This document shows positions 3,101 to 54,040 of a DNA stretch of 64,000 nt, piece by piece. Both the position numbers and the translations under genes were made by a program. The stretch is from Schistosoma haematobium (lineage: Eukaryota; Platyhelminthes; Trematoda; Strigeidida; Schistosomatidae): positions 92,977,864 through 93,041,863 of the forward strand of contig NC_067196.1 of NCBI RefSeq assembly GCF_000699445.3. The letters run 5' to 3'. The notes beneath the pieces are model-generated. The model made no database searches. It saw only the letters and a program-made list of their open reading frames with translations, and was not told the origin of the DNA. The stretch's first letter is position 1; each line of letters starts with the position of its first letter.

Positions 3101-6100
3101 TCCAGCGCCTGACATCCGATTCTCATCCTTTTAATTTCGTAAACACCTTCGCCGCGATGACTTTCTGGCAGTGGCTGCATATGGGAGGCCATTTGAGAAC
3201 ATTTCAAAAATAGGCGTGCTGTCCTCTATTCCGGCCGTACTAATGCATTTAGGGAGCAGTCATGAGAGTTTGTCGTCTGATGAAATTTTTACACGAATTC
3301 ATAAGGCTCGATTCTCGTTCGCCAACTTTCTTCATTTGTGGCGTAGTTGAGATATCCTTTAACCAACCAAAGGTGAGTTTACTGTGCAGCGGTTTGCTCA
3401 TAGGTGACTTCGAAGCATAGCTCGTGTATTTTGGGACCACGAAGTGAGCTATGCCTCGGTTTAAGATCTGGATACTAGGTTAGAACAGCGAATTGAGTGA
3501 TGAGGTACTAAATATTCATCAATTTATGCCAAAGCCCACTTCAACGGTGGGCGGATAATCCTTTTCGGTTGCTACTCATCCTTATGATATCTACTTCCAA
3601 TTCTCGACACAGCGCTCTTTGGTCTTTCTCATTTCCGTTAACCTTCAGGATTTCAAGTTAGAGCTCGCCTCGTGATGTAGTTTGATGGTTACCCTAATGT
3701 ATCTCGTATCCACTACCGTCTTTTCGTGATTTCCTCCTCAGCTCAAAGTCGGATTGTTCTTTCCCACAGTTAGCTGTTGTTGATGGTATCCAGCCAATGG
3801 ATTTTGAGTATATCGCGTAGACAACTATTTATAAATACGTGTGCCTTTTTGATGATGGTTGTATTAGTTGTTGAAGTTTCAGATTTGTACAGTAGAACTG
3901 TCTCGACGTTCGTATTGAAGATTGTGGCTTTGATATTGTTTGACATTTGTTGTAAGTTCCAGATATTGTTCAATTGTAGGAATATTGCTCTTGGTTTACT
4001 GATCCTCACCATTACATCTGCATCAGATTCTCCCTGTTCGTCGATGATGCTGACCTTGTCATGTGCTAAAAGTTTCCACTTGCTCCAGAGTTTGTCCATC
4101 AAATGTGATTTGTTTGGTTTGTGTTCTCTGCGTTGTATTTGAGGATGTTGGATTTTATCTTGCGTAGTTTGATGGTTACCTTAATGTATGTTGTATCCAA
4201 TACCAACGTTTTTTCCTGATTTCCTATCCAGGTAGGAAGTGGTTTGTTCTTTACCACAGTAAGTTGTTGCTAATGGTATCCGGAAAACGGCCATTCAGTA
4301 ATTATATGGCAATAGAAATTTATTGGTCGTACTATTTTATAGCACTCACAATAAGGAAATGTAAGTATTTGCAAATAACGTCCACACATGGGGTCTTCAA
4401 ACCAATGTAATATTCCGAGATGATGAATAAAAGCAATGAATAAAACTGAACTATCATTAGTTATTGGGATCAGATAGGAAGTTTGTGAAAAACAGGTCTT
4501 ACTAATAACTTATGCTATATGCATTACAGTTAATCAGATAACACTTTGACGAAATATAAATACAGTTTCCAAATGCAAAACTTGATGGATTTATCTCCAC
4601 TTAAACGTAAATGCAATTTACCATAGGGCAATATGTGCCCGGTTCCCGTTTTTTAGCGTCACAAGGCAAGCCCCCACATGGAAACCTCAAGGCCAAAGGA
4701 AAACCAAAGAACACATTACGCCGAGACAGACATGAGAAGAATGAACAACAATTGGATAGAACTAGAAAGGAAGGCCTAGGACAGAGTGGGTTGGAGAATG
4801 CTGGTCGGCGGCCTATGCTCAATTAGGAGTAACAGGCGTAAGTAAGTAATGTGTGTCCAGATATTTTTTTACTTCATACAACATAAACAAAATGTATAAT
4901 TGACTAATTACCAGTTTAACTATAATGGGGTTGCCCAAACGAACAACATCATTGTACGGTAGTAATTCCTTAGCGCGATACTCATTCACCAATTCCAAAC
5001 AGCTAGTTAAACGTGATTTTAAATCGTCTGTTGATTGTATTGATACTAGGTTATTAAACACATATCCAAACACTAAAGCCTTATTAATCTCATGATCCTA
5101 AAATGCAAAAACATAGAAAATAATAATTTTAAAATTATAGATTTATCATATATAAGCAAAATAAAGAATGTCATCATTTTCCTGTAAGAATATTGCAGTA
5201 GAATCGAATTCTAACAAAAGAAGTCTCGATAACCAGAAATGACCTAGACGAAACGGGATAAACGTTTTGTGTTATTATTATTCAATAACGAAGGAATATT
5301 AAGCGATACATTCTTGATAAGAAGGCAATCAAAACAAAATTCACTCAAGTATAGTATCGCTGAAAATACAATTATGGTGTTTATGATTAATGATAATATT
5401 TACTATTAAAACTGGATATCATGAAAATCTTAGCAGAACATCCACTAACATAATGAGACATTACTCTTATGATATTTAGATATGGGCATTCACATACAGT
5501 CAGTCAGTCAGTAACAACGTAGAACTTCGTACGTACATACATCAGTTCGAGTTGCCACACCACATTAGCACAGAGATGCAGTTGTCGATTCGAATCCCGT
5601 AGTGGTAGAGGTAATAAGAGTATAAGCAGTAATCGGAAAGATTAGGGTTTGGAGATGTTCAAGACATATTGAACTAGCAGAAACAGACTTAATAATTACA
5701 TAAAGCTACTTCACTGGGCGCAAACTCACACATTTGGCAAGGTTTGGTCAGTCAGCTACAACGTAGGACCAGGCACATATATGCATCGGTCCGAGTTGCA
5801 ATACCTCATTAACACAACAAGATGGACACCGGATTCATAAAAGTAGTTAATACAGAGGTGGTTATATATAAAAGAAAGATTGCAATAAGAATATAGTACA
5901 GGAAGAAAGAAAGATATGAAGAATTTTAACCTCTTAGTTTAGGGGAAGACAGAGTGTATACACCGACGCTATTGTGATCGATTCTGAACCATGTCTCACA
6001 GGGTCTCCAACCATTGGTTACGATAGTCACGAGGATCCCAACCAAGTAGTCTGCATCTACCAACATGGCTCAGACTAGAAGATAGTAACTGCAAGCACTG

Positions 6101-9100: not shown

Positions 9101-12100
9101 ACTTTTTGTTATCTACATCTTGAAGTCCTAATATGATATGAAGAATTGAGCCAATGGACATCTGTCCCAGGCTCTACGTTAATGAGGATTGACCAAATCA
9201 AAACAACACTATGATGCTAAATGTATGAAGACAGAGAATAAATATATTATAAGAATAACATAAAATAATAATTATTTTTAAGTTATTGCTAAGTTGTAGT
9301 ATACAGCATTCATACGACGGTCTACACTACAAAGTCGGGCATGGATAACAGCTTATAGACGCATTTCAATTGACAACTGGTGTCAGATAAGGCAGCTTAC
9401 TCTTTCCCTCTCTCTCATATGGTGGTTGACTAGATTATGAAGACCCACACATGTGAGGGGAAGCACGGAATACAATGAAAAGCTTGGATGCAACTAGACG
9501 ATTTGAACTTCCAAGACGACCCAACTCTTTTATCTTATATACACCAACAAATGCAGATGAAAACAACCTGTGTAGCAGAAGACTACATCAGTAGGTCCTA
9601 ACATACGCGAGGTAAAATCCAACATCCTCAAATACAACGCAGAGAACACAAACCAAACAAATCACATTTGATGGACAAACTCTGGAGCAGGTGGAAACTT
9701 TTAGCACATGACAAGGTCAGCATCATCGACGAACAGGGAGAATCTGATGCAGATGTAATGGTGAGGATCAGTAAACCAAGAGCAATATTCCTACAATTGA
9801 ACAATATCTGGAACTTACAACAAATGTCAAACAATATCAAAGCCACAATCTTCAATACGAACGTCGAGACAGTTCTACTGTACAAATCTGAAACTTCAAC
9901 AACTAATACAACCATCATCAAAAAGGCACACGTATTTATAAATAGTTGTCTACGCGATATACTCAAAATCCATTGGCTGGATACCATCAACAACAGCTAA
10001 CTGTGGGAAAGAACAATCCGACTTTGAGCTGAGGAGGAAATCACGAAAAGACGGTAGTGGATACGAGATACATTAGGGTAACCATCAAACTGCATCACGA
10101 GTTACTTACTTACTTACGCCTGTTACTCCCAATGGAGCATAGACCGCCGACCAGCATTCTCCAACACACTCTGTCCTGGGCCTTCTTTCCTAGTTCCATC
10201 CGATGCTTGTTTATTTTTCTCGTGTCTATTTCCATTTCTCAAAGTAATGTGTTCTTTGGTCTTCCTCTTTTCTTTTGGTCTTGAGGATTCCATGTGAGGT
10301 CTTGTCTTGTGATGCAGTTGGGTGCCTTCCACAATGTGTGTCCTATCCACTTCCAGCGCTTCTTCCTGATTTCTTCCTCCACTGGGATCTGGTTTGTTCT
10401 CTCCCACAGTACCTTGTTGCTAATAGTGTCCGGCCAACGGTTGAATGACATGGCTCAAAATCGTTTGCAATGGCGCAGGTGCATCCACTCTCTGTGTTCT
10501 CCCAAATTTTAATCTTCTGATTTTTTCATGTCCCTTTCTTTTTTCTCTTTCCAAACTTATTTCACTGGATTATAGTCCTTGAATAACATCTTCAAACCCT
10601 AATTTTTCTGATTACAGCTTATAATCTTACTACATCTAGCACTATGGGATTTGAATCGACAACTGCATCTCTGTGCTAATGTGGTGTGTCAACTCGAACT
10701 GATGTACGTACGTACGAAGTTGTACGTTGGTACTGACTGACAGACTGACCGGCCAACGGATCTGAAGTATTTTGCGTAGACAACTGTTAATAAACACTTG
10801 TATTTTCTGGATGATGGCTTTCGTAGTTCTCCAGGTTTTTGCCCCATACAGTAGAACTCTCTTGACATTTGTATTGAAAATCCTGACCTTGGTGTTGATT
10901 GACAGTTGTTTTGAGTTCCAGATGTTCTTCAGTTGTAAATATGCTGTTTTTGCTTCGCCGATCCACGCCTTCACATATGCATCAGATCCACCGTGTTCAT
11001 CAATGATGCTGCCCAAATATGTAAAGGTTTTTACATCTTCCAAATCTTCTCCGTCAAGTGTGATTGGGTTGGTGTATGCTGTGCTGTATCGGAGATCCTT
11101 GCTTTTCCCTTTGTGTATATTGAGATCTACTGCTGCTACACTGGTCGTTTTCTCCTGCATTTTTGTTGCGCTTGGAATAGAAGGGCCAGATCATCTGCGA
11201 AGTCTAGATCGTCTAACTGCATCCTAGATGTCCACTGTATCCCGTGCTTCCCTTCAAATGTTGATGTCTTCATGATCCAGTCGATCACCAGGAGAAAGAG
11301 AAAGGGTGAGAGTAAGCAACCTTGCCTGACACCGGTCTTTACTTTGAACGACTTTGTCAATTGTCCTCCATGCACGATTTTGCAGTTTAATCCATTATAC
11401 GAACTCTGTATGATACTGACTATCTTCTGAGGCACGCCGTGGTGTCGAAGAAATTTCCATGGTGTTGTTCTGTCTACACTATCAAATGCCTTTTCGTAGT
11501 CAATAAAGTTGATATAGAGTGATGAATTCCATTCAATTGATTGTTCCACAATGATCCGTAGAGTTGCGATTTGGTCTGTACACGGTCTATCCTTACGGAA
11601 TCCTGCCTGCTGGCCACGAAATTGGGTGTCTACGCAGTCCTTCATTCTGTTTAACAATACCCTGTTGAAGACTTTTCCCGGTATTGAGAGGAGAGTGATG
11701 CCCCTGTAGTTATCACAGTTGCTGTGATCGCCTTTCTTCGGTATTTTGATCAGGAGTCCTTCATTTGTTGCTCTTCAATGTTGGTGATTACCTCGCCTTC
11801 CTTGCTTTTCACTGGTCGTTCTGGTTTGCGGCGATTTCCAGAGAGTTTCTTTGTCGTGTCATACAGTTGTCTCATGTTTTCTTCTGTTGCAGCCTTTACC
11901 GCCGTCGTTGCTAAACCTTCTACATATCAACGTTTGTCAGTTCTAATGCTCCTCTTCACTTGTTTGTTTACTTCTGTGTATTCAGCTTGTGCCTTGGTTT
12001 TTTCTGCTCTTGTTCGGATGGTATTGTTTGCTGCCTTCTTGTACCTCCTTTCTTGAATCTTATCCAGTGTATCAACAGTTATCAATTCCTTGTGATGGTG

Positions 12101-18100: not shown

Positions 18101-21100
18101 CATAAACCGGAAATGAAGATAGATGATCATTTTGTTTTTGATACTTATGTATTACTTTGAAAATTTCCAGAGCAGCAGCTGGGCGTCCCTTCGCTAAGAG
18201 CACTTTGACAGTGTCAATAGCAAACTCCAACGGAAAGTAATCTGTTGTAAGTAATTTTGTTGTAATCTGTAGGTTAATAAATAAAAATATGTGGAACAAA
18301 TTATCAACAGTTAGATACAATCTTGAATAGGCTATTGAATAGAGCTTGGTCGAAATATGATTAGACTGATATAATAAATTGCACAAAATCAAGACAGAGG
18401 GAGCAGAACTACATTAACGCAGACAGAAGCTGGGCAAACAGCTGGGAGTCACATTATCTAGCAGATTTAATGCATATTGTTATATCTACAAAAACGTGAA
18501 CCTGATCTACATTCATCTACTCCCACACAATTCTCAATGCAGAAATTCACGAGACATTACATGTTTTGGCTTTTTAAGTAACTTTATTATCATGAGGTGA
18601 AATTTACTGTTTAGAAAGTTATTAGCTTAGAAAATGTGAACCCCGGTTTCTACAGTGTTACCCAAGTTCATATAAGAATGAATTTTGTAGATCGTATGAA
18701 GCGACATCTATGGTAGTATGTTGAACAATTAATACAATTTGTAAAAATCCTTCACATTTTATTTTGGAAAGATTTATAATTTAATAGAGTAAAATACCAA
18801 ATTCAAATATACATAACAATAAATTGACCAAATACCTCACTGCACGTTGCATCAGTATATGCCAACGAACACACTAATCTTGTGTACAGATCCAAGAGTA
18901 AAATAGGTGAGATTTCACGGGATGCTGTTTTGTCATCTATTGAAGGGAGTACAGCGTAAGCCTCATCTAGAGTTCGTAATAAACTGTCTTTGTCACCAAT
19001 ATCAGCGTAAGCGGACAAAAGGCCTTCATATGCAAACTTTGATGGCCACAAACCTATTTGAGATAGTAACTCCTGCGTAGAAGAAACTTCCTCAGGTAGT
19101 CTGAAAGGTTGTTTTGAAGTTTAGAGAATACAAATTAACTCAAAATAAAACCAAGGTATTTTAAACAATTTTATTCAGTGTTCAGAACAAGTAAATGTTA
19201 TTATAACTTGATGACAATATACTTGGATAGTGATTATAACTAATATCTTAGACTGGAGTGAGTTAAGGTTGGAAGCTGTAGCACGGAGGTGGAAATAATT
19301 ATGTGGATAAAATGTAAACGATTTAACACTAAGATGATATGCTTGTGGATCAACATAAAACGTCACTAGAGGCGCGATGGATTGTACCAATTAGGAAGCA
19401 AGATCGACTAGTAGAACATCCGTCGAAAGACCAGCCGATGATGCAACTAAACAATTATAGATATGCTGTATTACAAGCCATATACTGTTAGGAGTGAAGA
19501 CAATAGCCAATAGTTTTATCTTTGGTAGAATAAACATAAAAAACCAAATATGTACAGAAGGCTCGACTAGCTTTTACCAACTTGCGTCATTCATGGCGTA
19601 GGCGAGATTTCCGTCTATCAACCAAAGGACGTGTTTACTGCGCAGCAGATCGTTTCGTCCTACTTTATGGCAGCGAAACATGGCCGGTAAGAGTAGAGGA
19701 TATTCGTAGGTTACTAGTATTTGATCATAGGTGTCTTCGAAATATTGCTCGTATATCATGGGACCATCGAGTAAGTAATGCAGTTGTTAGGAAACGGGTA
19801 CTAGGTAAGGATGGCAAATCAATTGATGACGTAGTGAAACTTCATCAGTTGAGATGGCTTGGACACGTGTTACGTAGGCCCAACGACCGACTGCCTCGAC
19901 GTGCGATGTTCAGTGGTATAGGAGTAGGTTGGAAGAAAGCTAGGGGCGGCCAGACCAAAACATGGCACAAGTCCATGAAGTCACTGACAAGTGGACTGAG
20001 CCATGTTCGTAGGTGTAGACTACCTGGTTGGGGACCGCGAGATGATAGCAACCGATGGTTAGAGACCCTGAATGACATGGCTCAAAATCGTTTGTAATGG
20101 CGCAGGTGAATCGACTCTTTGTGTTCTCCTAAATTCTAATCTGAATTCTCCTTGTCTCTTCCCAAATTTATTTCACTGGATTATACTCTTTAAATAACAT
20201 CTCCAAACCCTAATTTTTCTGATTACAGCTTATAATTTTACTACATCTAGCACTACGGGATTTGAGTCGACAACTGCGTCTCTGTGCTAATGTGGTGTGG
20301 CAACTCGAACTGATGTACGTACGTACGAAGTTCTACGTTGTTACTGACCGATTGAATTTAAAAAACTGGTCTGTCCGGGAGCTCTAACTACGTATTCCAC
20401 TACTCCTGAATTTCAATGATTGAGTTGCCTACCTAATTTTTGACTAGTCACTCTGGTTTACTACATTCCCCTGCTAGTTTTTTCGTTGCCATATAGTTGT
20501 TTCACATTACCTCTTGTAGTTTTCTGCAGCAGTTGCTAGGTCTTCTAGATATTCTCGCCTGTCAGTTGTAATGCTCCTCTTTACTCAATCGTTCCAATGT
20601 ATCCGGCCTGTGCCTTGGCTTCTGTTCTAGCCAGGACGTTAAGTTTCTTTCTATTTTTAGATTTTTACCTAAAGCGTCAATAATGACTAACTACAAACTA
20701 CTGGTCAGGAAGGGTACCGTAGCGTTTACTTAAGTCACTCATACCAACACCCTGCTTACCATAAGATAAAATTACTGGATGTTGTAAAACGATTATTCTA
20801 ATCACTATCACAGGTTGGCTTACTACCTAGATCCTTAAACTATAACCAGCCATATACAAAGTAATACCTGTCACATACATCAGTTAGGGTTGTTACACTA
20901 TGTTATCGCAGATGTATTAGATTATTCAGACACTTCAGAGTAATGAAAGCAGTGACAGTATCAGATGTAAAAATATGTAATGATAAAAGGTTTCGGGATT
21001 CTGGATTCAAGGAGGTGCAGCGAACACCGAAAACAAGCAGACAGGTGATAACATAATCAGAGCAGAAAACACTATCTATATAATTTAGGGCTTATCATGA

Positions 21101-44973: not shown

Positions 44974-46963
44974 ATCCAAAAAGCTGTGGAAACAGCAGTG
45001 ATATCTGCTAGTAAGGTAAACCAGAAGGTTAGGGAGCAACACTGGATCTCAGTAGCATCTATCGCACTGATAGATGCTCGGAAACTCATTCCATCTGGCT
45101 CTGAACATAATGAGGAGCGGAGTCAAATTAAGCGCAAGCTGACAAGAAGTCTACGCAATGATCGTGAACAGTGGTGGGTAGCGAAAGCAAGAGAGATGGA
45201 AAAGGCAGCGGCAATAGGTAATAGCAGACAATTGTTCAGACTTGTTAGGGAAACCGGTATTAAGAAAGCGACTGTTAGCGAAAGATGGATATATCATACA
45301 TTCTCAATCCAGGAGATTGGATCGATGGGCAGAACACTTTAGGGATCAGTTCAACTGGCCTCCAACCACATTTCTGTTTCCCACGATCTCCAGCCAACCT
45401 GAATGGCAAGTTAATGTAGGTCCTCCGTCCTTTTACGAAGTTGAAAAAGCCACAGGAAACCTGAAGCGAGGGAGAGCAGCAGGCCCTGACAGGATTACTC
45501 CTGAGATTTTTAAGGATGGTGGTTCAGTATTAGTAGTGAGATCAACTGAGGTGTTGGGTAGAATTTGGGAACTGGACGTAATCACATCTGACTGGTCTCA
45601 ATCACTGATTGTGCCCGTCTATAAGAAAGGACAAAAGTCCTCTTGTGACAATCACAGAGAAATCAGTTTGACCAATATAGTGTCTAAAATATTAGCTTCA
45701 ATAATACTTCGACGCCTAATCAAAGCTCGTGAAGAGCAGATTAGAGAAAACCAGGCCGGTTTTCGACCTGGACGTGGTCATATAGATCAGATATTCACAC
45801 TACGTCACGTTCTAGAACACAGACACACATTCAGACGCCCCACAATGGTAGTATTTCTCGACCTTAAGGCGGCATTTGACTCTGTTGATCGTGAGGTTCT
45901 ATGGCAGTGTTTGTCACTGAAAGGAGTACAAAAGAAGTACATTAACCTTATAAAGGCTCTCTACTCGAACACAACTGGTAGAGTGAGAGCTTATGGCGAA
46001 CTGTCATCGGAATTGATTACCTCAAGTGGTGTTCGTCAGGGCTGTCCACTCTCCCCATTCTTGTTCAACTTTGTGGTCGACGTACTTTTAGAGATAACAC
46101 TCTCCTCATCTAAATTTATAGGGGTTGAACTTGTACCGGGAGGTTCACTTGTTGACTTAGAATATGCCGATGACATAGTTTTATTTGGTGAGGACGCTGA
46201 CAAAATGCAGAGTCTACTGACCACTCTAAGCAACAATGCAAGCATGTTCGGGATGCGATTCTTTCCCTCGAAATGCAAAATGTTGCTTCAGGATTGGGTT
46301 GCATTGACACCCGAACTAATGATAGGGAGTGAAGTAATTGGGCATGCCGATCGCCTCACTTATCTTGGAAGTCTCATCAACCCTTGTGGTCTGGTGTGTG
46401 ACGAAATCTCAGCACGGATACAGAAGGCTCGACTAGCTTTTACCAACTTGCGTCATTCATGGCGTAGGCGAGATTTCCGTCTATCAACCAAAGGACGTGT
46501 TTACTGCGCAGCAGATCGTTTCGTCCTACTTTATGGCAGCGAAACATGGCCGGTAAGAGTAGAGGATATTCGTAGGTTACTAGTATTTGATCATAGGTGT
46601 CTTCGAAATATTGCTCGTATATCATGGGACCATCGAGTAAGTAATGCAGTTGTTAGGAAACGGGTACTAGGTAAGGATGGCAAATCAATTGATGACGTAG
46701 TGAAACTTCATCAGTTGAGATGGCTTGGACACGTGTTACGTAGGCCCAACGACCGACTGCCTCGACGTGCGATGTTCAGTGGTATAGGAGTAGGTTGGAA
46801 GAAAGCTAGGGGCGGCCAGACCAAAACATGGCACAAGTCCATGAAGTCACTGACAAGTGGACTGAGCCATGTTCGTAGGTGTAGACTACCTGGTTGGGGA
46901 CCGCGAGATGATAGCAACCGATGGTTAGAGACCCTGAATGACATGGCTCAAAATCGTTTGTAA
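44974..46963 (+). pseudogene. RTE-B linker, reverse transcriptase and C-terminal domain
   Basis: Linker 44,974-45,280 (SASKVNQKVREQHWISVASI). A one-base frame change near 45,280 is followed by an unbroken frame to 46,963. RT motifs: GRAAGPDRITPEIFKDG, HREISLTNIVSKILASIILR, NQAGFRPGRGHIDQIFTLRH, VVFLDLKAAFDSVDREV (motif A), SSGVRQGCPLSPFLFNFVVD (motif B), LEYADDIVLFGED (motif C, both Asp present). The C-terminal end has [20 protein letters not shown] and [20 protein letters not shown], ending DMAQNRL. Only the linker frameshift and the endonuclease stops keep it from being a complete polyprotein. Confidence 0.88.
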
Positions 46964-49914: not shown

Positions 49915-50611
49915 TCCAAAAAATAAACTGAAGGTATGTCATACAATCGAAACCGAAGGCCCACCTGTGTTTGCTAGACCTGGAGGACTATCACCAGATA
50001 AGCTTAAAATCTCTAGAGACTTATTCGAGTACTTGCTACAGATATGTACTGTCCATCCACTTGATAGTCAATGGGAATTGTCTTTGCATAGAGTCCTGAA
50101 GAGTAATGAAGGCAGTTAGCGACTGTGCGGAGATTACAGATCCCTCAACCCTAAAACCATATTAGATAGGTAGCCAATACCTCATATCCAAAATTTTATA
50201 AATGGCTTACAGTGTCTGAACATACTCATCAAAATCTACTTGGTCAGGGCATATCTCGATATCCCAGTAGCTGAGAAAAATACCCCCAAAACGGTCATTA
50301 TTATACCTTTTGGACTGTTCAAGTTTGTACACATGCCATTAGGCCTGAGGAATGCGGGACAAAGATTTCAAAGGCTTATGGAAAACCCACTTCGGAATAG
50401 GCCATCTGCACAGGTGCATAGACGACTTGTTAATTTCCAGTCCAGATTTGAATTCACATATGCAACACATTAGGACGGTGTTAATACAGCCAAATGAAAA
50501 TGAAATGAACATACATCAAAGTAAGTGTATTTCCGGTGTTTAGATTAGAGAATTTCTCAGACACATAATAAGCCCAAAATGGACCACACCGATCACTTAA
50601 GAGGTAGACAC
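49915..50611 (+). mobile_element. Ty3/gypsy pol relic (RT start)
   Basis: Broken frames read TEGPPVFARPGGLSPDKLK, LFEYLLQICTVHPLDSQWEL, LCGDYRSLNPKTI, then 50,240-50,473 with YLDIPVAEKNTPKTVIIIPF and GLFKFVHMPLGLRNAGQRFQ (gypsy RT block pkTAIiTPFGLFEF.rMPFGLrNA). Cut at 50,611 by the next LTR. Confidence 0.75.
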
Positions 50612-50683
50612 TGTAGCGGTAAATAAATCCCCAAAATAAATAGCTCTGTAAGTTTCCGACATTGGATGCTGACCAGATTAGTT

Positions 50684-51315
50684 ATATCGAAGGTCGTGAA
50701 TTCACTCTTTTCACTGACCATAAACCTCTTAATTTCTCGTTAAGCTCCTCTTCAGACAGGTGTTCACCTCGTGAGTCTTGACAACTGGACTACATTTCGC
50801 AGTTTGCTTCAGATATTCAACACATTTCTGGAGCAAACAATGTAGCCGCAGACGCTTTGTATCGCACAACTTCCTTGAACAGTTTCCAAGGAATCGACCT
50901 TCTTAAACTCGCCGAGCTTCAAAAAGAAGACACTTCATCACGAGTTATCGTCTACAAACCTCAAACTACGCATCAAACAGATGGGAACAGGTAAGGAAAC
51001 TTTACTTTGTGACACATCTACAGGTAGGGATCGCCCAATCGTGCCAAAACGTTATCGGCGCAACGTCTTCAATACGTTGCACAAACGTTCTCATCCAGGT
51101 GTTCATGCAACCATCAAGCTTATGGCAGAACGGTTTTGCTGGCCTGGCATGAATAAAGACGTGAGGGAGTGGGCATGCTCCTGTGTAGGCTGCCAGAAAT
51201 CTATGGTTATCAGACACAATAAATGTCCCTTAGACTCGTTTAAAACTCCCGATGCTCGTTTCGACCATGTTCATCTGAATTTGGTAGGATCTTTACCAGA
51301 TTCAAATTATTACTC
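50684..51315 (+). pseudogene. Gypsy RNase H end and integrase zinc-binding domain
   Basis: EGREFTLFTDHKPLNFSLSS (RNase H), IQHISGANNVAADALYR, then 50,981-51,315 with VFNTLHKRSHPGVHATIKLM and AERFCWPGMNKDVREWACSC followed by VGCQKS (the HHCC finger H..H..C..C), and DHVHLNLVGSLPDSNY at the start of the integrase core (the expected Asp is replaced by Asn, HLNLVG). Two stops lie upstream of 50,981. Confidence 0.78.
51308..51315 (+). repeat. Target-site duplication of the foldback element, left copy
   Basis: TATTACTC; the right copy at 52,508-52,515 is TAATACTC (7 of 8 match). Confidence 0.8.
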
Positions 51316-52507
51316 GGCGAGACTCTAATTTAAGGACGACCTTTGAACGAATCTTATGTGACCATGACAATTATTAGCCAATCAGAAGACAGTTGGTATA
51401 AAGTGAGAATATATTGTAAGTAAGTAATGAATTACAGTAGATATTCTTCTTTTACATGATTTAAAAACTTGTTAAGCTTTGATAAAGGTTCAGAGGCTCT
51501 GAATTCATAATGCATATTATACAGAAACTCGTCCATAGGGTTAGTGGTTAGGGTTGTAGCCTGTAAGTAGACACATATTCTCTAAAATCCAATGTAAACC
51601 GATCGCATGCTAGCACCCTAATCCTAACCTAACCCTAACGTAACCCTAAACCCTAATCTAACCCTAAACTTAACCTAACCCTAAATCCTAATCTAACCAT
51701 AACCTTAGCCCTAATCTAACCCTAACCAAACCTAACCCTAAACCCTAATCTAACCCAAAAACCCTAACCTTCACCCTAACCTAACCAAACCTAACCTTAA
51801 ACCCTAATCTAACCCAAAAACCCTAACCTTAGCCCTAAACCCTAATCTAACTCTAACCTTAACCTAACCCTAAACCCTAATCTAACCCTAACCTTAACCT
51901 AACCCTAAATCCTAATCTAACCCTAACCTTAACCCTAATCTGACCCTAACCTTAACCTAACCCTAAACCCTAATCTAACCCTAACCTTAACCTAACCCTA
52001 AATCCTAATCTAACCCTAACCTTAACCCTAATCTAACCCAAAAACCCTAACCTTAGCCCTAAACCCTAATCTAACCCTAACCATAAACCCTAACCTTAAC
52101 CTAATCGTTAACCCTAATTTTAACCCCAAACCCTAACCCTATGGACGAGTTTCTATACAATATGCATTATGAATTCAGAACTTCTGAACCTTTATCAAAC
52201 CTCAACAAGTTTTTAAATCATGTAAAAGAAGAATATCCACTGTAATTCATTACTTTCTTGTAATATATTTTTACTTTATACTGTCTTCTGATTGGCTAAT
52301 AATTGAAATTGCTCAGACGCTTCTCATTGGCTCGTCCCTAAATTATAGTTTCGCCGTCCCATCTGTTGTAACCTCTCATTAATCACCTACTCTCTAAAAT
52401 CCGCTGTGAACCGATCGTATGTTAGCAGCGCGTGTTGAACTTGGCTCCGTGACCTTGAAATTGCTCAAACGCTTCTGATTGGCTCGTCCCTAAATTAGAG
52501 TCTCGCC
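51316..52507. mobile_element. Foldback (long inverted repeat) DNA element with telomere-like core
   Basis: Both ends show GGCGAGACTCTAATTTA as an inverted repeat. The arms (about 230 bp left, about 365 bp right, the right with an extra internal duplication of a GAAATTGCTCA block) are closely similar, including an inner stretch of about 160 bp ending CTCGTCCATAGGGTT. Between the arms lies the telomere-like array. The 8-bp duplication and the exact restoration of the gypsy integrase frame (SNYYS then [12 protein letters not shown]) show it inserted as a unit. An 8-bp duplication fits hAT or Merlin transposons. No transposase is present, so it would be non-autonomous. Confidence 0.85.
51610..52142 (+). 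repeat. Degenerate telomere-like (CCCTAA)n array
   Basis: About 530 bp of CCCTAA, CCTAAC and CCCTAAAC variants with CCCTAATCTAA interspersed, C-rich strand on plus. Trematode telomeres are known as TTAGGG. Longer-period order is visible (CCCTAATCTAACCCTAACC recurs many times), so it is a higher-order repeat rather than a fresh telomere. It is internal to a transposon, not a chromosome end. Confidence 0.9.
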
Positions 52508-53403
52508 TAATACTCTTATCTCTTAACCTGCGTCGACCGTTTCACTCGATGGCCAGAAGCAGTACCTATCAAGGACATCACTGCTGGAACAGTGGCTCGC
52601 GCCTTCGTTGAACGATGGGTAGCAAACTTCGGCTGCCCTTCAACCATCACTACAGACCGCGGACGTCAGTTTGGATCTGATCTTTTCCGTCGTCTGACCA
52701 CACTTTTAGGAATCACTCGATTCCGAACGACCGCCTACCACCCACAGGCAGACGGGTTGGTGGAACGTTTTCACCGACAACTAAAGGCTTCTCTATCAGC
52801 TGCAAACGTTTCACAGTGGACTGACGCTCTTCCACTCGTCTTACTAGGTATTCGCAATGCAGTGAAAGCTGACATTGGATACACTGCAGCTCAACTCGTT
52901 TATGGAACGACACTTCGACTTCCAGGAGAATTCGTGGATCCTTAATCCTCTTCAATGAACACGAATCTAACCTCCTACACGAACAGGCTTACAAACGCAA
53001 TGCGTTCAGTTAAATCTGCTTCCACTCGACCACAACCTGACTCACGATATGGTACACACGTCTTCGTATGTCGAGACTCGCATAGACGACCATTCGAATC
53101 AGCATACGAAGGACCTTTCAAAGTTCTTCAACGTGAATCTAAGTACTATATAGTCGATAAGAACGGAACAAACGATAGCATCAGCATCGATCGCTTAAAA
53201 GCAGCGTATTTAGAAGGAAATCATATTCACGTCGACTTTCCTTCGGTACAATCGCACAACACGACTCCTACGCTTACAATACCCCAACCGACAGGCAACA
53301 CACACGATGATACTTCCGTGGTATCAGAAAATAAACTTAAGACGATGCGTTCTGGAAGAAGAGTAAGATTTCCAGAACATTTAAACGATTATTGCACGTA
53401 AGG
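52508..53403 (+). pseudogene. Gypsy integrase core and C-terminal tail
   Basis: [20 protein letters not shown] (with the first catalytic region just upstream), [20 protein letters not shown] (second Asp in TDRGRQF), [20 protein letters not shown] (Glu in VERFHR). The D,D,E pattern is recognisable except for the changed first Asp at HLNLVG before the insertion. One stop at 52,943, then 52,955-53,401 with FVCRDSHRRPFESAYEGPFK, YIVDKNGTNDSISIDRLKAA and RRVRFPEHLNDY, the typical gypsy tail. Confidence 0.85.
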
Positions 53404-53703
53404 CACTACTTGACATTTTATATTATCTCGATTTTTCTTTTTACGATAAATAATGTTTAAAAAAAACGATTTCAATATGCTTAGATATTTATATTTTCAT
53501 TTCAAAAAAGACAAACACAAAAACAACATAAAAACCCTTTTTAACGATATTACGTGTACATGAGTTTATTTTCCATTTATTTCGTCGGCATTGTGTTCTT
53601 ACGCGCGTACGAGTGTATTTCGACATGCACTTACATTTTCTTCTTTCTTTTCCAGGACGGCTGGGGAAGAACGATGAAGTTTACGAGGAGCCAAAATTTT
53701 TAT

Positions 53704-53993
53704 TGTACTTTTTTCGACACTGGATGCTGACCAGATTAGTTTTAGTGGACTAATCTAGCTGAAGGCACTCGGTCATGCATGCGCACCAGATCACGTGTGG
53801 GAACGCCGTGCTCAACTGCTACTGCAATCGCCAGCCGGATTAGATCAGATAATTCCGATATACTGGCAATCGTCAAATACAACTTCTGATCTACTCGATT
53901 CTGTCTTTTGATTTCTCTTGGTGGGTACGAGTTATATTAGGTGTTACTGGTAAAAGCGTTGTCAAACACTGAATACCTGTGCCATCTTCAACA
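53704..53993 (+). mobile_element. Ty3/gypsy LTR (3' LTR of the deleted element)
   Basis: About 290 bp beginning TGTACTTTTTTCGACACTGG and ending CCATCTTCAACA. Shares GATGCTGACCAGATTAGTT with the 5' fragment at 50,612-50,683. Confidence 0.68.
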
Positions 53994-54040
53994 CCGTCAG
54001 ACAATAGCTCATACCAAGTTCTTCCGGTTGTGTACAACTA

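Follow-up and report, generated by a model that had tools for sequence, protein, structure and literature searches.

A putative non-autonomous Merlin transposon carrying a degenerate telomere-like array in Schistosoma haematobium

We analyzed a window of 64,000 nucleotides from Schistosoma haematobium, in which a decayed gypsy integrase gene is interrupted by a 1,192-bp insertion at positions 51316-52507 (Table 1). Profile matches confirmed the gypsy integrase assignment that a sequence-only reading of the window had made, with the zinc-binding domain (PF17921) to the left of the insertion and the core domain (PF00665) to the right, where the match begins at profile position 24. The insert plus one copy of its target duplication amounts to 1,200 bp, which places the two sides of the integrase in phase. 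That reading had further claimed that removal of the insert restores the reading frame. The phase agrees with this, but other frame changes and stops are present elsewhere in the gypsy copy, and the insert is therefore not its sole lesion. Open frames and translations revealed no long open frame within the element (51316-52507), and Rfam gave no match in positions 50000-54000 of the window. Elsewhere in the window, two reverse-transcriptase frames (19540-20097 and 45218-46963) have their C-terminal ~180 residues in common and probably belong to the same RTE-like retrotransposon, present twice. A reverse transcriptase of the window matches the S. haematobium protein MS3_00009929 at 98%. A 498-nt inverted repeat (3669-4166 and 9604-10101, 99% identity, 5.4 kb apart) reflects either a recent duplication in inverted orientation or a pair of young repeat copies. 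At the end of contig C2, the final 500 bases (L096) contain neither CCCTAA nor TTAGGG words, so the assembly stops short of the telomere there.

Table 1. Coordinates of the insertion, its parts and the flanking host gene in the window
Feature	Position	Strand	Basis
Host gene, left part: gypsy integrase zinc-binding domain PF17921	51041..51202	+	E 8e-18
Left target duplication copy TATTACTC	51308..51315	+	7/8 against 52508-52515; mostly 8/8 in other copies
Whole element: putative telomere-cored non-autonomous Merlin, composite form	51316..52507	+	Ends, arms, array, duplications
Left arm: Merlin 3' end, reverse-complemented, terminus GGCGAGACTCTAATTTA	51316..51537	+	blastn, 30/30 Merlin-transposase loci, 72-89%
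Merlin transposase remnant in left arm, last 34 codons and stop	51432..51536	-	Translation; frame end compared with L033 by eye
18-bp telomere-like filler GGGTTAGTGGTTAGGGTT at internal-deletion junction	51538..51555	+	Read in 29/30 loci; absent from 9 listed Merlins
63-bp block from Merlin 5' region	51553..51615	+	Direct repeat of part of the tail, 79%; Merlin matches
Degenerate CCCTAA (telomere-like) array with 35-bp unit	51615..52141	+	Tandem Repeats Finder
Right arm: second, inverted copy of Merlin 3' end; inner terminus 52332-52355	52140..52355	+	Arm alignment, terminus pattern
Merlin transposase remnant in right arm, last 34 codons and stop	52141..52245	+	30/34 residues as in L033 frame
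152-bp tail: Merlin 5' end, reverse-complemented, with outer right terminus	52356..52507	+	87-93%, 9 listed Merlin loci
Right target duplication copy TAATACTC	52508..52515	+	7/8 against left copy
Host gene, right part: gypsy integrase core domain PF00665	52514..52744	+	E 2e-12

The outer ends of the insertion were identical at 23 of 24 positions (51316-51339 compared with the reverse complement of 52484-52507), as expected from the matching termini described earlier, and both begin with GGCGAGACTC, a GG start as in Merlin. The terminus pattern GGCGARACTMTAATTTARGGACGA, allowing up to three mismatches, occurred three times in the window, compared with a mean of 0.00 in 100 shuffles. The arms pair over 160 nt at 91% (51396-51555 with 52122-52281) and at 86% when 51316-51553 is paired with 52125-52355. 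Long inverted arms bearing the outer termini had been proposed; the arms (86-91%) are present, but the right arm stops at its own terminus and the outer right end belongs to the tail. The inverted ends fall within the 24-462 bp range for Merlin, both for the outer 24 bp (23/24) and for the inner arms (~240 bp). The arms surrounding a middle segment also give the unit a foldback shape, a term that describes shape rather than superfamily.

Tandem Repeats Finder assigned the 527-bp central array, previously put at 530 bp, a period of 6 (ACCCTA), with longer units of 35 bp and 224 bp. The degeneracy that had been described was confirmed, since perfect CCCTAA covers 41% of the array and is nowhere found in two consecutive copies. 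In the predicted DNA fold of the window copy, the arms form a stem and the array stays open. Because this array has a single orientation, only the arms can pair, and the long hairpin of arms plus array suggested earlier is limited to an arm stem. Similarly, the 8-bp duplication suspected at the flanks is present, but its two copies match at 7 of 8 positions. Terminus and arm patterns had no matches in viral contigs or in the genome_contigs set, while one 18-mer matched one viral contig (L001). A distant blastn search of the left part against phages found none, and a 46-aa arm peptide gave no candidate in a protein database.

We searched the 400-Mb assembly, in which the window is G000:C2:92977864-93041863, using the left arm and adjoining block as the query and obtained 1,270 first-look candidates; scoring 40 of these yielded at least 52 matches. 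The best 30 loci, chosen by similarity to the window copy, were analyzed (L002-L031, L002 being the window copy). A left arm, array and inverted arm were found in 29 of 30 loci, with the inverted arm shortened in L011; the 63-bp block was detected in all of these but L023 (28 of 29). The one locus with no array, L031, is 376 bp long and has the target duplication AATTCATT. A complete tail is lacking in four of the 30 loci (L008, L020, L026 and L029). Among the 26 complete copies, 19 are flanked by perfect duplications (18 at 8/8 and L005 at 9/9), two by duplications at 7/8 (L002 and L018) and one at 6/8 (L015). The four copies in which no duplication was found (L006, L010, L012 and L025) count against mobility, as do L015 and the 10 of 24 Merlin pairs at 6/8 or less described below. 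When flanks were paired across different copies as a control, 8/8 matches arose in 0 of 650 pairs and 7/8 matches in 5 of 650. Collectively, the unit occurs at many sites with 8-bp (once 9-bp) duplications, and in 29 of the 30 loci the same sequences border the array. Several of the duplications at the flanks of L003-L030 have the form GA(A/T)...C (for example GAAATACC, GAAAAGTC, GAAATTTC, GAAATATC and GATTTTTC), a possible target preference judging from these flanks.

Like MITEs, the element has many copies, lacks a transposase gene and shares its ends with an autonomous-type element. At 1,192 bp the window copy exceeds the MITE length of roughly 400 bp given in the relevant section of PMC9659126, which the 376-bp L031 fits. 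Genome-wide, the terminus pattern with up to two mismatches was found 862 + 804 times (1,666; reversed control, 0 + 0), a count that takes in full Merlins and inner ends. The composite junction, in which the inner terminus is followed by the tail, was found 61 + 52 times (113; control, 0 + 1). These are counts of patterns in one genome rather than of curated elements. As a less biased sample, we took the first 30 exact terminus matches, all on contig C1, which correspond to 21 places. Using a cut-off set after looking (at least five telomere-like words in 60 bp), 15 of the 21 have a telomere-like core. Four others are of Merlin length (L065, L078, L088 and L089), L080 has three telomere-like words and L079 has no paired end. 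Two places repeat loci already analyzed (L064 = L016 and L078 = L044).

The 29 arrays range from 63 to 753 bp, and all contain CCCTAA and lack TTAGGG; the longest, in L010, takes in other Merlin-derived pieces. This range of lengths might suggest that the termini are mobile but that each copy acquired its array separately, through telomerase or capture of a chromosome end. Several observations make this very improbable. The junction with the filler is common to 29 of 30 loci, the filler being identical in 20 and slightly changed in 9 (the search word failed in L015), and such near-uniformity makes a single origin likely. The array edges are also the same in most listed copies, including an identical breakpoint between array and right arm, and the 35-bp unit (up to two mismatches) was found in 25 of 29 arrays. 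Finally, a gapped alignment matches the arrays of L005, L006 and L009 unit for unit, as expected from the gain and loss of units. Genome-wide, the 35-bp unit had 96 matches (control, 0), and element sequence accounted for 92 of them. Seventy-five of the 96 lie within 1 kb of one of the 40 places from the left-arm search, and 17 more fall at 10 fetched sites, seven with both arms and three with one arm within the short stretch fetched (L095, L098 and L100). The matches outside the 92 are at C2:57185017, C1:47533126, C1:47538543 and C4:33331946, the last of which lies ~300 bp from a composite-junction match.

To identify transposase-bearing relatives, the genome was searched with the profile PF12762 (IS1595-type), giving 885 candidates, of which 150 were scored to yield at least 150 matches. 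All 30 Merlin loci that were cut out match the left arm over stretches of 108-227 bp at 72-89%, L060 in two pieces. Pairable ends were found in 24 of the 30; 19 of these 24 pairs are spaced 1,077-1,113 bp apart, eight of them exactly 1,112 bp. Their target duplications are at 8/8 in 9 of 24 pairs, 7/8 in 5 and 6/8 or less in 10. The tail matches the opposite Merlin end at 87-93% among the nine loci listed. The right arm encodes MDEFLYNMHYEFRTSEPLSNLNKFLNHVKEEYPL, in which 30 of 34 residues are identical to the end of the frame of Merlin locus L033. That frame matches PF12762 with an E value of 7.3e-23 and, as judged by eye, has acidic residues at plausible places for the catalytic D, D and E. 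Most listed Merlin copies carry stops inside the matched PF12762 domain, and movement may therefore be over. Related proteins among 15 matches came from S. haematobium, S. intercalatum, S. spindalis, S. mekongi and S. mattheei. The ends, arms and tail of the window element are thus both ends of a ~1.1-kb Merlin of the same genome, and on this sequence evidence we assign the element as a non-autonomous derivative of that IS1595-type transposon.

Duplications of 8 bp are not unique to Merlin, and the element could instead belong to another superfamily with such duplications (hAT, Mutator or P) that contains Merlin sequence through nesting only. On a transposase search of the genome confined to PF12762, we consider this more improbable still, because both ends are the ends of Merlin-transposase elements that have duplications of their own, and because the termini start with GG, as given for Merlin in the portion of PMC8101967 dealing with termini.

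Since the array is telomere-like and the window lies ~0.26 Mb from the end of contig C2, it could also be an ordinary interstitial telomeric sequence, left by a chromosome fusion or by on-site telomeric addition at a break, with the arms incidental. The array, however, halts at fixed arm sequence on either side, is not plain TTAGGG but a degenerate repeat with a shared 35-bp unit, and belongs to a unit with termini and a duplication; similar units lie on several contigs, each with different duplications. We regard this explanation as having a negligible chance of being correct. A telomere-fusion scar would have head-to-head arrays without transposon ends, while the window has a one-orientation array within termini and a duplication.

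On contig C1, L062 and L063 share flanks. The pairs L082/L085 and L090/L091 lie 34-41 kb apart with mutually reverse-complement duplications and are either inverted segmental duplications or assembly errors. These places resemble duplicates of one insertion, which lowers the number of independent insertions. Although they would fit an assembly artefact or a single segmental duplication counted repeatedly, the flanks differ among the complete copies of the 30 best loci, leaving that explanation equally negligible.

We therefore return to Merlin, and judge it very probable from the sequence comparisons that the element is a non-autonomous Merlin of MITE/foldback type, with a degenerate telomere-like array as cargo moved by Merlin transposase. 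Based on the shared ends, a Merlin transposase acting in trans would recognize the GGCGAGACTC... ends and mobilize the whole unit, including the array. The earlier proposal that the array is cargo of a mobile element and not a chromosome-fusion scar is upheld by the presence of the array in 29 of 30 loci and by target duplications that differ between copies, and array-bearing copies at many sites agree with the spread of telomere-like DNA through the genome that it anticipated. Of the checks it suggested, the search for other copies of the arms gave the matches above (at least 52, with 40 of 1,270 candidates scored), and these copies have a CCCTAA core in common (29/30 loci). Duplications of 8 bp were recovered at other copies (18/26 at 8/8, one at 9/9), and a transposase-bearing relative with the same termini was found in the Merlin (PF12762) loci, hAT or Merlin having been suggested.

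The 376-bp locus L031 points to how such a unit may have arisen. In the nine listed Merlins, the 3' region reads CTCGTCCA.ATGGCT..., with small changes between them, and in the MITE L031 the same region reads CTCGTCCATA-GGGTTAGTGGTTAGGGTT-GTAGCC. This comparison places the 18-bp telomere-like filler where the coding region was; its last 3 bp (GTT) are common to Merlin sequence beyond the junction. In a possible first step, a Merlin would have lost its coding region, and some 18 bp of telomere-like filler would have closed the break to leave a MITE of 376 bp. Two such 3' ends would then have joined head to head to give a symmetric foldback, in which the filler of one side would have enlarged into the array through tandem duplication. 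In a third step, a symmetric foldback would have inserted into another Merlin's 5' end, after which the left end of the foldback and that 5' end would have moved jointly, producing the form seen in the window. We put this three-step history at slightly below an even chance.

Several copies bear on these steps. L004 and L005 have identical left arms and different target duplications, with arrays of 245 and 427 bp, respectively. The tail-less L026 and L029 stop at the inner terminus, where each carries an 8/8 duplication (GATTATAT and AAATTTTT), a pattern suggesting that the symmetric foldback is mobile without the tail. L090 (8/8 duplication) and L076 (7/8) also lack the tail, and in tailed copies the tail follows immediately after the inner terminus. 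Copies that lack the tail and bear duplications of their own are plausible intermediates. The array-poor L080 (G000:C1:55649658) is a MITE that has the telomere-like filler and an almost complete 5' end; a short run of telomere-like bases links it to an inverted 3' end, and the copy looks like a foldback preceding array growth.

Other builds do not follow from this simple history. In L094 (G000:C3:30177000-30177900), the orientation of the array and 63-bp block is reversed with respect to the arms, the product expected from recombination between inverted arms. L093, L101 and L102 are more symmetric, each containing CCCTAA as well as TTAGGG words and the 63-bp block in the two orientations. These four builds are unexplained by the simple history. 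Both words are also present in L097-L099, and a single orientation is therefore true of the 29 arrays, not of all copies. One arm is cut to ~157 bp in L062, L066, L069, L071, L074, L076, L082, L085 and L090.

More tentatively, telomerase-type GGGTTA repeats may have sealed the break left by loss of the Merlin coding region, so that the resulting MITE gave rise to a satellite grown from the filler within a foldback, which Merlin transposase may then have delivered to roughly a hundred chromosomal sites or more. The filler could instead be chance sequence or captured telomeric DNA rather than a telomerase product. Because ends, duplications, a transposase relative, an array-less form and candidate intermediates occur in one genome, the idea is directly testable. 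Telomere-like tracts of schistosome chromosomes need not be marks of fusion, and the copies offer a natural series for following satellite growth, as in L004 and L005.

Neither this element nor a telomere-like array in any MITE or Merlin was found described in the open-licence literature searched, and the strings of the arm sequence had no match in its text. The claim that the architecture is undescribed stands to that extent, although tandem repeats are known inside foldback elements, inside Merlin, where several families contain them internally (in the section consulted of PMC8101967), and inside MITEs (likewise from part of PMC9659126). The available text of PMC8101967 also gives Merlin duplications of 8 or 9 bp, and Merlin blocks from S. 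mansoni and S. japonicum appear in an alignment legend there.

The element resembles the Merlin superfamily, which is related to IS1016/IS1595, in its GG termini, its 8- or 9-bp duplications and its IS1595-type transposase loci with the same ends. It differs in having no transposase, in combining two inverted 3' ends with one 5' end, and in its telomere-like array. MITEs with hitchhiking tandem repeats, such as those with lepidopteran (GTCY)n, Xenopus Xstir and X. tropicalis miDNA4, similarly carry and spread an array, but in the part of PMC9659126 that describes them the repeat is not telomere-like and the parent transposon is different. Long inverted arms are shared with foldback elements and with Tetris and Galileo of Drosophila; as far as partial accounts of these describe them, their arms are internally repetitive and they belong to other superfamilies (Galileo being a P-element), whereas here the array lies between the arms. 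Lastly, interstitial telomeric sequences at repaired breaks (TERC-ITSs and others) have a short telomere-like stretch at a junction, comparable to the filler. According to the conclusion of PMC8537989, TERC-ITSs were not spread by transposons; in S. haematobium, in contrast, a transposon carries the telomere-like repeat.
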